From positions 806,001 to 870,000 of the forward strand of contig NC_018526.1 of assembly GCF_000294495.1 (NCBI RefSeq): a stretch of 64,000 bases of DNA. The letters are read 5' to 3'. The translations under genes were made by a program, and so were the position numbers. Of the stretch, positions 27,505-34,643 are shown piece after piece. The DNA comes from Streptococcus suis S735. Its GTDB lineage: Bacteria; Bacillota; Bacilli; Lactobacillales; Streptococcaceae. Numbering within the stretch: position 1 is the first letter of the stretch; every line of letters starts with the position of its first letter. The notes under the pieces are model-generated. The model had not been told where the DNA came from. It ran no database searches and saw only the letters and a list, made by a program, of their open reading frames with translations.

Positions 27505-27521
27505 CATAAAAATAATTATGT
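27504..27521. repeat. Recurring palindrome ACATAA-N6-TTATGT, copy 1
   Basis: A perfect inverted repeat begins at the last base of the gntR stop. Related copies lie at 31109-31126, 34648-34665 and 50829-50846. Confidence 0.7.
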
Positions 27522-27570
27522 AAAACATTTTTAAAATCCGTAATCTTTCTAGTGATGACGGATTTTCTTA

Positions 27571-27599
27571 TTTATAAAATATGGAATTTTTGATATAAT
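27571..27599 (+). promoter_or_regulatory. ylxM-ffh promoter, predicted near-leaderless
   Basis: TTTATA (27571-27576) and TATAAT (27594-27599) are 17 bases apart. The ylxM ATG at 27607 lies seven bases after the -10, so transcription should start at or one base before the start codon. Confidence 0.6.
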
Positions 27600-27606
27600 G
27601 AAGTTT

Positions 27607-27939
27607 ATGGAAATTGAAAAAACCAACCGAATGAATGCCTTATTTGAATTCTATGCAGCCTTGCTAACAGACAAGCAAATGAACTACATCGAGCTCTATT
27701 ATGCCGATGATTACAGTTTGGCTGAGATTGCTGAAGAATTTCAAGTCAGCCGTCAGGCGGTCTACGATAACATTAAACGAACAGAAAAATTACTGGAAGA
27801 CTACGAGATGAAACTACATATGTATTCTGACTATGTAGTGCGTAGCCAGATTTTCGATGAAATACTGAACAAGTATCCAGAAGATGCTTATTTGAAGGAA
27901 AAAATCGCTATTCTAACCAGTATTGATAATAGAGAATAA
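27607..27939 (+). CDS. ylxM: YlxM, SRP-associated DNA-binding-like protein
   Basis: YlxM is a small helix-turn-helix protein that in streptococci interacts with the signal recognition particle and modulates Ffh GTPase activity. The 110-residue protein has [25 protein letters not shown], then [14 protein letters not shown], a sigma-70 region 4-like HTH. The ATG at 27607 is preferred to that at 27598, which overlaps the -10 box. No Shine-Dalgarno precedes either. ffh starts 12 bases after the stop. Confidence 0.9.
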
Positions 27940-31160: not shown

Positions 31161-31787
31161 ATGATTATTTGGTTAAATGGCCCATTCGGTGTCGGAAAGA
31201 CTACTTTAGCAAATATATTACACAAACGAATAGAAAACTCATATCTCTATAATCCCGAATTACTAGGTGATTTCTTACAACATCAATTACCTCAGACTGT
31301 ATGTCCTGAAGATTTTCAAGATTATTCCGTTTGGCGACAGAGTACTTATAAAATAGTATTTGATTTAGCGACTAAAACCGATAAGATTATTATTATTCCT
31401 ATGACAATCTATAAGAAAGAATATTATCAGGAGATTATTCAGCAATTGATACAGGATAAGATTCCTTTGGAACATTATATTTTGTTAGCTGACAAAACAA
31501 CCATTTTGGAACGTTTAGATAATCGAGTCAATGAAGACAACATCTGGGCCAAAAGACATCTTGATGATTGTTTATACTCAATGAAAATCAAAATCTGACT
31601 AGGCGACGTAGATGCAGATAGAACTGAAGTTCATCAAAACAAGTCAACAACGTCTGATTTTGATTTTCGAAGAGTATTAAAATCTTTTGAAAGTCAGATT
31701 CCAGGACAAAGGTTTAAAACAGACAGTTTGAAGCCAGAAGAGGTTGCGAAGAAGATTCTAATGCTATGTGAGTTTACCGAGAAATAA
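31161..31787 (+). pseudogene. P-loop nucleoside-kinase-like gene interrupted by a BOX element
   Basis: The first 138 codons encode a small P-loop kinase resembling TmrB or cytidylate-kinase-like proteins, with Walker A GPFGVGKTT and a basic-lid region RLDNRVNE. At codon 139 a 102-bp BOX-like repeat is inserted and a TGA inside it (31596-31598) ends the frame, giving 145 residues. After the element the same frame resumes with LKSFESQIPGQRFKTDSL and runs to TAA at 31787. Removing the element would restore about 173 residues. The truncated protein lacks the C-terminal helices and is probably inactive. Confidence 0.8.
31575..31676. mobile_element. BOX-like repeat element inside the kinase gene
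   Basis: The 102-bp element runs from TACTCAATGAAAATCAA to TTGATTTTCGAAGAGTA, the terminal motifs of pneumococcal BOX elements. TTA flanks both sides and may be a target duplication. A second copy of equal length lies at 59471-59572. Confidence 0.8.
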
Positions 31788-32135
31788 TCTAGATTTTTAG
31801 GATTTTGGACGTGAAAAAAATTTTCTAGTTATCTCGAAAACTAAAAAATTATGAACAATTGACCTAATATAGCCTGAACCCTTGATAATACTGAGATAGA
31901 AGCATAAAGTACATTCTTCAAAAAATGTACTTTATTTTTATTTTGTACATTATTTTAGGATTCAATAAGGTACAGGATTAAAGCATATTATTGTATTAGT
32001 GTTAGAAATCCAATTGTACAAAATGTAGTAGAAAATAGAGGGGAGGAGATTGGAGCAATTGTACATTTTTAGATGTTAGTCGTAGAGCAAAAATAATAAA
32101 ATCAGCTAATTTCTCAGATTTTCTTGATAAAAAAC
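31788..32135. other. AT-rich gene-free DNA left of the Abi module
   Basis: No coding region is visible. It holds the left ~41-bp direct repeat (31794-31834; partner at 33430-33469). It also has several GTACATT/AATGTAC motifs, including an inverted pair near 31930 and further copies near 32018 and 32063. Related motifs recur right of the Abi gene. Confidence 0.55.
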
Positions 32136-32164
32136 TTGACGTATATTCAAATATACTATATAAT
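32136..32164 (+). promoter_or_regulatory. Strong promoter before the Abi-associated RNA
   Basis: TTGACG (32136-32141) and TATAAT (32159-32164) are separated by 17 bases. The predicted start is near 32171, which leaves about 80 bases before the Abi start codon. Confidence 0.8.
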
Positions 32165-32170
32165 GAACTT

Positions 32171-32233
32171 GAAATATCAATGGCCGCCCTTGCTTCAATT
32201 GCACAGACATGTTCTGATGGGTGGTTTTTTTTT
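32171..32233 (+). ncRNA. Candidate small structured RNA upstream of the Abi gene (abiF RNA-like)
   Basis: The RNA predicted from the promoter folds by pairing GCCGCCC (32183-32189) with GGGTGGT (32219-32225, one G-U pair). Inside is a small CAGA/TCTG hairpin. A run of nine T follows at once, so most transcripts should end before the toxin gene. Promoter, short RNA, terminator, then an Abi_2-family gene is the layout described for abiF RNAs. The match is by arrangement and not by covariance search. Confidence 0.55.
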
Positions 32234-32250
32234 GTTTAAGGAGTGTTCAA

Positions 32251-33214
32251 ATGAGTAGTTTTTCCCATAAAAGTTTTGAGGAACAAGTTGCTTTGTTAGA
32301 ATCAAGAGGCATGCTGTTTTCTGGAGAGCAGGACAAGAAAAAAGCTGAGCAAAAGTTATCAATAATTTCTTACTATAAATTAAAGGAATTTGCTAGACCT
32401 TTTTCAAAAATTGTGACAGTTGATGGAGTGCGTCAAATAAATTACCAAAACACCCCATTCAAAAAAATTACTGTTAGTATATTATCAAGATAAACGATTG
32501 CGTCTCCATCTATTGGATGCTCTCGAAGACATTGAGGTAGCTTTAAAAACCCAAGTAGCATTTGTTTTAGGTTATAGGAGATTAGGGCCATATGGATATT
32601 TAAATTTCTCACAGTGGTGCAATAAAAAAGAGTACTGCAAGCATTACCTAAAATATCGAGAAGAGAAATTTAAAAAGCAGCTCAAAGCTGAATTGAAAAG
32701 AACAACTTCTCCAGAAATCAAGGAAAAATTGAAAATTGACAATATGAAATATCCTCCAATTTGGTTGGCTATTAACCTAATGACGTTCGGTCAGATAATC
32801 AACCTTATCGAATTGATGTCAACAAATAATATTAGACAAATAGCTAAACAATATGATTGCAGTGATGCTGAGTTACTTTCTTGGTTGAAATGTTTGAATT
32901 TATTACGTAATATGTGTGCTCATAATTCGAATATTATTGATCTTAAAATGCATACAACACCAATACTTCGTGAAGAATGGAAGGAGCTCTTATACGAACT
33001 AAAAGAAGGTGTTTATTCAAACCGCATTGCTCTGCCGATTATTATAGTGAAATATATGATGGATGCTATTGATAACCAATATAATTTTAGAGAAATTTTT
33101 GGTTCATTTAGAAAGTTGATTGACAAAAGCCAAAGGCAAGCAAATTACTACGGCCTTAAAAACAAGGAAGTATTGAATTGTCTGCAACATAATTCTTTGT
33201 ATACTAGAATTTGA
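32251..33214 (+). pseudogene. Abi_2 family (AbiD/AbiF) HEPN-type abortive infection protein, frameshifted
   Basis: AAGGAGTG precedes ATG 32251. The first 81 codons read MSSFSHKSFEEQVALLESRG, the Abi_2 N-terminus, to a stop at 32493. The +1 frame then continues with YYQDKRLRLHLLDALEDIEVALKTQ and ends at 33214. Removing one A from the A7 run at 32461-32467 joins the parts as PFKKLLLVYYQDKRLR and gives about 320 residues. The HEPN RNase motif R-x4-H is present as RNMCAH. The full protein should be an RNA-cleaving toxin for phage defence, silenced here unless slippage occurs. Confidence 0.8.
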
Positions 33215-33488
33215 AATTAGAATAATCTTTGTTTGCTAAATATTAAGTAGATGCATTAAAAAGTCACTCATATTAAGAAATAATAAAACAGGTCTAAAGT
33301 ATAGATCTGTTTTAAATTTATGTAAAAAATGGGGGTATCTCTATGTCCGAAAACATAGTTTTAGGTATCAAATTAACTAGAAAAATGTACTTTGGAAAAA
33401 ATTTCCAGTTTTGTCGTTATTAAAGTACATTTTTAGCTGATTTTTCCTAAAAAATTTTTTTGGTTATCTTTCTAATATCCCCACAAAC
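33215..33488. other. Gene-free DNA between the Abi gene and dif
   Basis: No ORF of note is present. It contains the right copy of the ~40-bp imperfect direct repeat (33430-33469) and GTACATTTTTAG motifs shared with the left flank. Two AATGTAC/GTACATT motifs (33385-33391 and 33425-33431) are in inverted orientation. Confidence 0.55.
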
Positions 33489-33519
<31 letters not shown>

Positions 33520-33572
33520 CTTATATAAGGTTATGCTATACTACTCATATAACTAAAAATCAGGAGAAAATG

Positions 33573-34643
33573 ATGAGACGCGAGTTATTATTGGAAAAAA
33601 TTGATCAACTAAAAGAAATTATGCCTTGGTTTGTTCTGGAATATTATCAGTCAAAATTGGCTGTGCCTTACAGTTTTACTACCTTATATGAATACTTGAA
33701 AGAATACCGTCGTTTTTTTGAATGGTTACAGGATTCGGATTTGGTGGCTGTTGAACGGATTGCTGACATTCCGCTGGATGTTCTGGAACATCTGACAAAA
33801 AAAGATATGGAAGCTTTCATTCTTTATCTGCGGGAGCGTCCCTTGCTGAACGCCAATACCACGCAGAATGGTGTGTCGCAGACCACCATTAACCGTACCC
33901 TCTCGGCCCTTTCTAGTCTCTTCAAGTATTTAACCGAAGAAGTGGAGAATGAGCAGGGCGAGCCCTACTTCTACCGCAATGTCATGAAAAAGGTATCTAC
34001 TAAGAAGAAGAAGGAAACCTTGGCAGCGCGGGCGGAGAACATCAAGCAAAAGCTCTTTTTGGGCGATGAAACGATGGAGTTCTTGGACTATGTGGACAAG
34101 GAATACCAAGTCAATCTCTCTAAACGTGCCCTCTCCTCCTTCCAGAAAAATAAGGAGCGGGATTTGGCGATTCTGGCGCTTCTCTTGGCTTCTGGCGTCC
34201 GTCTGTCAGAAGCGGTGAATTTGGATCTTCGAGATGTAAACCTCAATATGATGATTATCGAAGTAACTCGTAAGGGTGGTAAACGGGACTCGGTCAATGT
34301 GGCTGGGTTTGCTAAGCCCTACTTAGAAGCCTACATGGGCATCCGTCAGCAACGCTACAAGGCTGAAAAAACGGATACAGCCTTCTTCCTGTCCGAATAC
34401 CGTGGTCTGCCTAACCGTATCGATGCTTCTTCTATTGAAAAAATGGTTGCCAAGTACTCTGCGGACTTCAAGATACGCGTAACCCCCCACAAACTCCGTC
34501 ACACATTGGCAACTCGTCTCTACGACGCCACCAAGTCGCAAGTTCTAGTCAGTCATCAGCTGGGCCATGCCAATACCCAGGTCACCGATCTCTACACCCA
34601 TATCGTCAACGATGAACAGAAAAATGCTCTGGATCAGTTGTGA
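33573..34643 (+). CDS. xerS: Tyrosine recombinase XerS
   Basis: XerS is the single tyrosine recombinase that resolves chromosome dimers at difSL in streptococci, coordinated with FtsK at the division septum. The 356-residue protein has an N-terminal core-binding domain (about 1-155) and a catalytic domain. The catalytic residues are visible as [28 protein letters not shown] and the nucleophile in DLYTHI. ATG 33573 gives the MRRELLLEK start; AGGAGA lies upstream. Confidence 0.97.

Follow-up and report, generated by a model that had tools for sequence, protein, structure and literature searches.

The 64,000-nucleotide stretch of the Streptococcus suis S735 chromosome analysed here (the window) probably carries what is left of an AbiF RNA-antitoxin module on the chromosome, with an RNA of a new class; the toxin gene of this module has a broken frame, and its RNA gene is intact (rough probability, 0.78). 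Upstream of the toxin gene, at a fixed position across relatives, lies a conserved RNA with covarying stems; the HEPN site of the toxin is invariant among homologues, and the model of an intact homologue has the AbiF fold. From these comparisons we read the module and its RNA class with high confidence.

A short RNA with its own promoter and terminator

The promoter of the RNA (Table 1), called near-consensus in the first-pass annotation of this DNA, is the top scorer of 14 promoter-like sites in a scan of positions 31700-33600, the count itself being uninformative at close to the shuffled mean of 10.5. The RNA of about 60 bases that the annotation described, with a GC-rich closing stem, an inner hairpin and a nine-T end, is also present in all its parts, and covariance model R1 (below) matches it over 32171-32229 with 63.3 bits, a score obtained on a sequence that is part of the training alignment. 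As a single sequence the RNA has an ordinary fold energy (z −1.25; 22 of 200 shuffles equally good), and its nine-T terminator is absent from the output of a terminator scan of the window region, so that only comparison with relatives sets the RNA apart from chance.

Table 1 Features of the AbiF locus in window coordinates
Feature	Position	Strand	Basis or remark
Sigma-70-type promoter of the RNA, TTGACG-17-TATAAT	32136..32164	+	11/12 consensus positions
Three-way-junction-class RNA, ~60 nt, nine-T end (32225-32233)	32171..32233	+	Comparison and model match
P1 5' strand CCGCCC	32184..32189	+	GC-rich closing stem
P2 small hairpin TGC...GCA	32191..32203	+	Stem 32191-32193/32201-32203; 3/3 pairs with compensatory changes in relatives
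P3 hairpin CAGA-CATGT-TCTG	32204..32216	+	Stem 32204-32207/32213-32216; most conserved part
P1 3' strand GGGTGG, doubling as terminator stem	32219..32224	+	Pairs with 32184-32189
Ribosome-binding site AAGGAG	32238..32243	+	Read from sequence
N-terminal part of broken Abi_2/AbiF gene, 80 aa, then stop (32491-32493)	32251..32493	+	ATG at 32251; weak Abi_2 match, 16.6 bits, below cut-off
C-terminal part of Abi_2/AbiF gene, other frame, 238 aa, HEPN site	32498..33214	+	Abi_2 105.8 bits, E 4.2e-30; PADLOC AbiD
HEPN motif R-N-M-C-A-H (R-x4-H)	32906..32923	+	R, N and H invariant in homologues
Terminator-like hairpin 3' of the gene	33284..33314	+	Terminator scan

A broken toxin gene with intact relatives

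The gene behind the RNA lies in two pieces, the second of which clears the curated cut-off of Pfam PF07751 (25.6 bits) by a wide margin. Searched across the whole genome, PF07751 has a single Abi_2 match, at 120 bits; an NCBIfam search of the protein at E 0.001 gave no match. We found no intact reading frame for the Abi_2/AbiF gene in this genome. The same locus in two other S. suis genomes (strains 2256 and 15) holds an intact copy as one open frame, 97% identical to the window gene over the 238 residues compared, which rules out a programmed frameshift; the window copy is broken, or misread in the one assembly. Of the annotated Abi_2 gene with an R-x4-H motif, the domain and the motif therefore stand, whereas the frame is not open and the HEPN part lies in another frame. 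The annotation had further proposed an RNA-linked defence module at this site; with the toxin frame broken, the locus is unlikely to be a working one. With a damaged toxin gene next to an intact RNA gene, it can at most supply an antitoxin that has no toxin to match, and there may be nothing to neutralise in this strain. Two loci of another Streptococcus genome (L017 and L028 in G062) likewise have an intact RNA in front of a broken Abi_2 copy, and the survival of the RNA beyond its toxin may thus recur.

The HEPN residues, whose conservation in orthologues the annotation had left to be checked, are indeed constant: R219, N220 and H224 occur without exception in the 16 aligned homologues (alignment A1), which come from streptococci and streptococcal phages, one lactococcal and one Clostridioides phage and an Aerococcus plasmid, and R, N and H are invariant again in 14 of 14 sequences of a second alignment (A7). 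An AlphaFold2 model, built for the intact relative L030 in place of the window copy (pLDDT 89.1, pTM 0.85), matched one PDB chain at E ≤ 0.001 in Foldseek, namely 8vz6 (E 1.3e-12, TM 0.73/0.79), whose title names a PbAbiF dimer bound to ncRNA; the sequence profile agrees with this match (E 2.2e-28). The predicted fold of the intact homologue thus resembles that of PbAbiF as bound to its RNA, AbiFr.

A conserved three-way-junction RNA upstream of Abi_2 genes

Our starting sample consisted of 102 loci with a tblastn match to an intact homologue, from which 15 were set aside: six repeats, two clostridial loci of the RF03085 type, five distant loci (24-28% identity, with other RNAs upstream) and two without upstream DNA. 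The RNA was found upstream of the Abi_2 gene in all 87 remaining loci, many of which are near-identical phage contigs and some of which were fetched twice, leaving 37 distinct RNAs including that of the window. These were aligned with MAFFT (alignment A3, for which the limits of L080 and L039 had first been placed manually), and RNAalifold, supplied with no structure, returned a three-way junction formed by a closing stem (P1), a small and variable hairpin (P2) and a CAGA-loop-UCUG hairpin (P3).

Compensatory changes, in which both sides are altered and pairing is kept, occur at 13 of the 14 pairs of this junction. Paired cells amount to 90.3% (74.3% in shuffled alignments), and the covariation score of 0.519, against 0.214 for shuffled alignments, was reached by 0 of 500 shuffles, a control that shared ancestry can inflate. 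Sliding the partners by 1-3 columns keeps the ancestry and lowered covariation to at most 0.144, although a structure derived from the alignment itself tends to beat its slid versions. P3 is paired in 100% of cells across the 37 distinct sequences. The stem conservation upstream of homologues that the annotation anticipated is accordingly present, and its suggestion of a streptococcal variant of the AbiF-linked RNAs is plausible: a conserved, terminated RNA precedes an Abi_2/AbiF HEPN gene. In the window and its relatives the RNA is a single unit, with no tandem repeats. Much longer P2 hairpins were observed in L039, L154 and L156, one of them from Aerococcus tenax.

Relation to Rfam abiF and other RNA-antitoxin systems

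A link to the abiF family of Rfam, which the first-pass annotation had suggested checking, was not borne out by covariance search: the window yielded no RF03085 match (gathering score 37 bits) in searches with E limits of 5 and 10, and neither did 22 related loci (15 searched at E up to 1, seven at E up to 0.5). The same library detects RF03085 upstream of abiF in the Clostridioides phages phiC2 and phiCDKH02 (37.6 bits), and the absent match rules out Rfam abiF as the identity of the RNA. Both RNAs have an outer stem around a small inner stem and lie upstream of Abi_2 genes, but where RF03085 has a short unpaired 3' stretch the new class has the covarying hairpin P3, with a loop, commonly UACGU, CACGU or CAUGU, that RF03085 lacks. 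A common origin of the two is plausible. RF02589 (Spy779816) was considered for the RNA upstream of the L024 Abi_2 gene and rejected, its sub-threshold match lying past the 3' end of the gene on the other strand.

The closest described counterpart is found in Clostridioides difficile. RCd22 is described as lying upstream of abiF, with a SigA promoter, a terminator at its end and low read-through into the toxin gene; its deletion is stated to raise abiF expression 17-fold, and by binding the toxin directly it is said to neutralise it both in cis and in trans, the toxin AbiFCd needing R202 and H207 (PMC12373285). The locus shares with AbiFCd/RCd22 an Abi_2 HEPN toxin with R-N-x-C-A-H and an RNA gene directly upstream, with one promoter and a terminator in between, and since the layout is the same, we infer the same job. 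The antitoxin role is in this way carried over from homologues (as presented in PMC12373285 and PMC12737573), and there is a good case by analogy that the RNA neutralises AbiF. RCd22 is reported to hold two abiF motifs, separate from its terminator (PMC12373285), whereas here a three-way junction of about 60 nt forms one unit whose closing stem is also the terminator stem, and the window toxin is broken; with RNA and terminator combined in this single unit, AbiF may be bound in a geometry other than that of RCd22.

Type III toxin-antitoxin systems (ToxIN and the like) also combine an RNA antitoxin upstream of a ribonuclease gene with one promoter and a terminator between, and the promoter-RNA-terminator-gene layout of the window fits their arrangement as one transcription unit. 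The tandem RNA repeats of those systems are absent here, and the HEPN toxin of this module differs from the ToxN fold.

In intact relatives, by analogy, transcription from one promoter would give an abundant short RNA, made in excess, with P1 and the T-run halting most transcripts and rare read-through supplying AbiF. AbiF would be a HEPN ribonuclease acting as a dimer, and the three-way-junction RNA would bind or cap this HEPN dimer and keep AbiF switched off until it is released by infection or because the RNA is lost. As a less certain extension, solitary copies of the RNA in phages might act on AbiF in trans.

Solitary copies of the RNA in phages and prophages

Model R1, built from A3, was run on 284 Streptococcus genomes, yielding 24 places in 16 genomes, and on 395 Lactobacillales genomes, yielding 27 places in 23 genomes and 14 of 80 genera. 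Six places were common to both genome sets, giving 45 loci, 12 of which are training places. A whole or partial Abi_2 frame lies within 1.5 kb downstream at 19 of the 45 (7 of the 33 non-training loci), and the RNA is solitary, with no Abi_2 frame within that distance, at 26. A phage terminase large subunit follows 0.7-2.8 kb downstream at 15 of these 26 (assigned with PHROGs from one picked ORF per locus), L146 has a phage exonuclease downstream, and the ten others comprise chromosomal loci, remnants and unclear cases.

When IMG/VR was scanned with a pattern for the P3 core only, 33 stretches came up, and R1 matched 32: 16 with Abi_2 downstream and 16 solitary, of which at least two are taken as duplicates (L177 = L137 and L179 = L131, by matching size and RNA). 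The terminase large subunit lies within 5 kb downstream in 10 of the 16 solitary and none of the 16 Abi-linked viral loci, which differ in length and in some cases end early. Genome and viral loci together, 22 of the 42 solitary copies have a tRNA T-arm motif no more than 300 nt away, as against 0 of the 35 toxin-linked ones. An ArpU-type regulator is encoded upstream of the RNA in L116, L129, L132 and L136, and the annotated phages Javan157 and Javan161 have terminase genes downstream of it.

Several further elements were observed around the solitary copies. A hairpin, AACCGCAAG...CTTGTGGTT or close variants of it, stands just after the RNA in L116, L131, L132, L137 and others and recurs in streptococcal phage islands. 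The islands of L137 and L144 contain tRNA-like genes with four-base anticodons (ARAGORN) near the solitary RNAs, which could be decoys too, and those of L141 and L145 contain the Rfam RNAs rliG, rli62 and mcrA near the solitary RNA; these three RNAs may be components of such islands as well.

An island of similar layout occurs in LYGO9, and Listeria phages share other parts of an island (41 records). R1 had no match in LYGO9 or sk1, each searched over its whole record, or in the fetched island regions of P70 (6.3 kb) and LP-101 (4.0 kb), and the idea that strictly lytic phages carry the RNA was dropped on these searches; RF03085 was likewise not found in sk1. Close to one end of the sk1 record (L223) lies a noncoding segment, 27505-27717, in which there are two tRNA-like matches; the record's other end starts with the terminase small subunit, and the place resembles the streptococcal islands.

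Structure is kept where gene, promoter and, mostly, a long T-run are gone

For a separate alignment of solitary RNAs we used 24 of the 42 copies (14 of the 15 terminase-linked genome copies, L146 and nine viral copies; 23 distinct rows), leaving out L158, which repeats L144, the other viral copies and the ten chromosomal or unclear ones. Placed on the drawn junction, these have 96.0% of cells paired, compensatory changes at 11 of 14 pairs and a covariation score of 0.512, compared with 0.181 for shuffled and at most 0.125 for slid versions; the slid controls of the toxin-linked and solitary alignments together rule out the junction as a product of chance. Unaided, RNAalifold recovered P1 and P3 in the solitary set and not P2.

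The transcription signals differ between the two kinds of copy. A promoter-like site (at least 9 of 12 positions, within about 50 nt upstream) precedes 17 of 19 distinct toxin-linked RNAs, the window being one of the 19, compared with 0 of 19 terminase-linked solitary and 4 of 14 other distinct RNAs, rows with less than 60 nt of upstream DNA being left out. Within the 10 nt that come next, 15 of 19 distinct toxin-linked RNAs have a run of at least six T, compared with 2 of 16 distinct terminase-linked solitary RNAs (Fisher p 1.3e-4, to be read with related sequences not being independent and with the promoter and T-run scripts keeping different representatives of identical RNAs).

The promoters and T-runs of the toxin-linked copies are what one would expect if the RNA were a mere transcription attenuator or terminator of the toxin gene, its fold serving termination or a signal-sensing switch and having no role in trans. 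The solitary phage copies count against this: they keep P1, P2 and P3 with compensatory changes although no toxin gene follows and their T-run is short, and a terminator would not need the near-invariant P3. We consider an attenuator improbable, while noting that P1 pairing near toxin genes could partly be kept for termination alone. With the fold retained and gene, promoter and strong terminator gone, selection seems to hold the folded RNA itself.

Solitary and toxin-linked RNAs can be nearly or fully the same. The solitary RNA of L171 equals the toxin-linked RNA of L169, L170 and L181 over 51 of 51 nt, and that of L116 differs from L118 at one position. By eye, a CAGG/CCUG P3 is shared in host family f9 by two toxin-linked copies (L148 and L150; not L157) and four solitary ones (L143, L144, L158 and L152), a small-number hint that the type of P3 is shared within a host family.

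A second RNA class beside the solitary copies

An RNA of the form GACUUAG...CUAAGUC begins a few bases after the solitary RNA at eight loci (L116, L136, L137, L160, L163, L176, L188 and L194). RNAs of this type also lie between the promoter and the Abi_2 gene in L023-L025, and the L194 copy differs from that of L023 at 1 of 42 positions. They align end to end with the RF03085 model below threshold (20.0 bits in L023, 27.6 in L137), and sub-threshold RF03085 matches stand next to R1 in two further islands (L138, 32.1 bits; L142, 26.2 bits). A phage in which two types of Abi_2-linked RNA adjoin would have the look of carrying a decoy set; an RNA-rich recombination site could look the same.

Possible roles of the solitary copies

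We tentatively propose that the solitary RNAs of Lactobacillales phages and prophages, which lie upstream of terminase genes, often amid tRNA-like genes and in some cases as a pair of classes, may be made from the phage operon and bind the AbiF of the host or of resident prophages, disarming it, which would amount to RNA-only counter-defence; we rate this as quite possible, if slightly short of an even bet. Phage-borne solitary copies of a defence system's own RNA part have precedents in RNA anti-CRISPRs, which are solitary CRISPR repeats in phages, and in pseudo-ToxI, a means of phage escape. Both of those have been tested experimentally, whereas the phage AbiF-type RNAs are known from sequence alone.

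The solitary copies could instead be self-antidotes that quieten the phage's own AbiF on induction and not that of the host. Javan149 and Javan161, which hold a toxin-linked and a second, solitary copy, fit this idea, but Javan157 and Javan420 carry a solitary copy with no PF07751 match in the whole record at E 0.001, and we regard it as unlikely.

Another account gives the copies a phage task unrelated to AbiF, such as RNA processing in the late region, packaging or spacing between tRNA-like genes, or sees in them recombination scars. In its favour are the many adjoining terminase genes, the tRNA-like sequence near 22 of 42 copies, the nearby RNAs of unknown role (rliG, rli62 and mcrA) and the absence of R1 from all of LYGO9 and sk1 and from the fetched island regions of P70 and LP-101. 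Against it stand the solitary RNA identical to a toxin-linked one over 51 nt and the second Abi_2-linked RNA, of the GACUUAG type, that directly follows at eight loci. We view an AbiF-unrelated role as somewhat unlikely.

Among the titles and abstract openings searched, with subscription journals mostly outside, we found no report of solitary phage AbiF RNAs as counter-defence. An RF03085 sRNA is reported from cyanophage S-CREM1, in the text available to us without a counter-defence reading (PMC9964418), and passages of PMC3675131, PMC6431027, PMC6105707 and PMC4759559 added nothing further to the argument.

Neighbourhood of the locus in the window

DNA on both sides of the AbiF locus aligns to the two S. 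suis relatives. The locus directly adjoins a 28-letter site at 33490-33517, the single match in the window allowing up to 3 mismatches, and a 357-aa recombinase gene just downstream of it (33570-34643); we take these to be a dif-like site and an xerS-like recombinase gene. On the other side, an imperfect 29-nt inverted repeat (31571-31680) runs across the end of a kinase-like ORF (31161-31598, AAA_33) and is presumably a small RUP-type repeat. Repeated GTACATTTTT/AAAATGTAC words flank the module on both sides (31905-31934, 32061-32075 and 33380-33439).

Implications

Rince et al., in 2000, reportedly found that a region of phage sk1 DNA protects phage 712 from AbiF. A decoy RNA would be a simple escape from AbiF for some phages, sk1 itself having neither R1 nor RF03085 by search, and the solitary phage copies would make the old question of how phages escape AbiF testable. 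If the proposed counter-defence is real, genomes that, like that of the window, retain a live RNA beside a dead toxin may gain the same immunity. More broadly, the RNA-guided enzyme Cas13 is presented as a descendant of AbiF, and the RNA partner of AbiF as the forerunner of the guide RNA (as put forward in PMC12165695, PMC12737573 and PMC12373285). Another RNA class, different in structure, that serves one and the same toxin fold would mean that the RNA partner has been freely remodelled.
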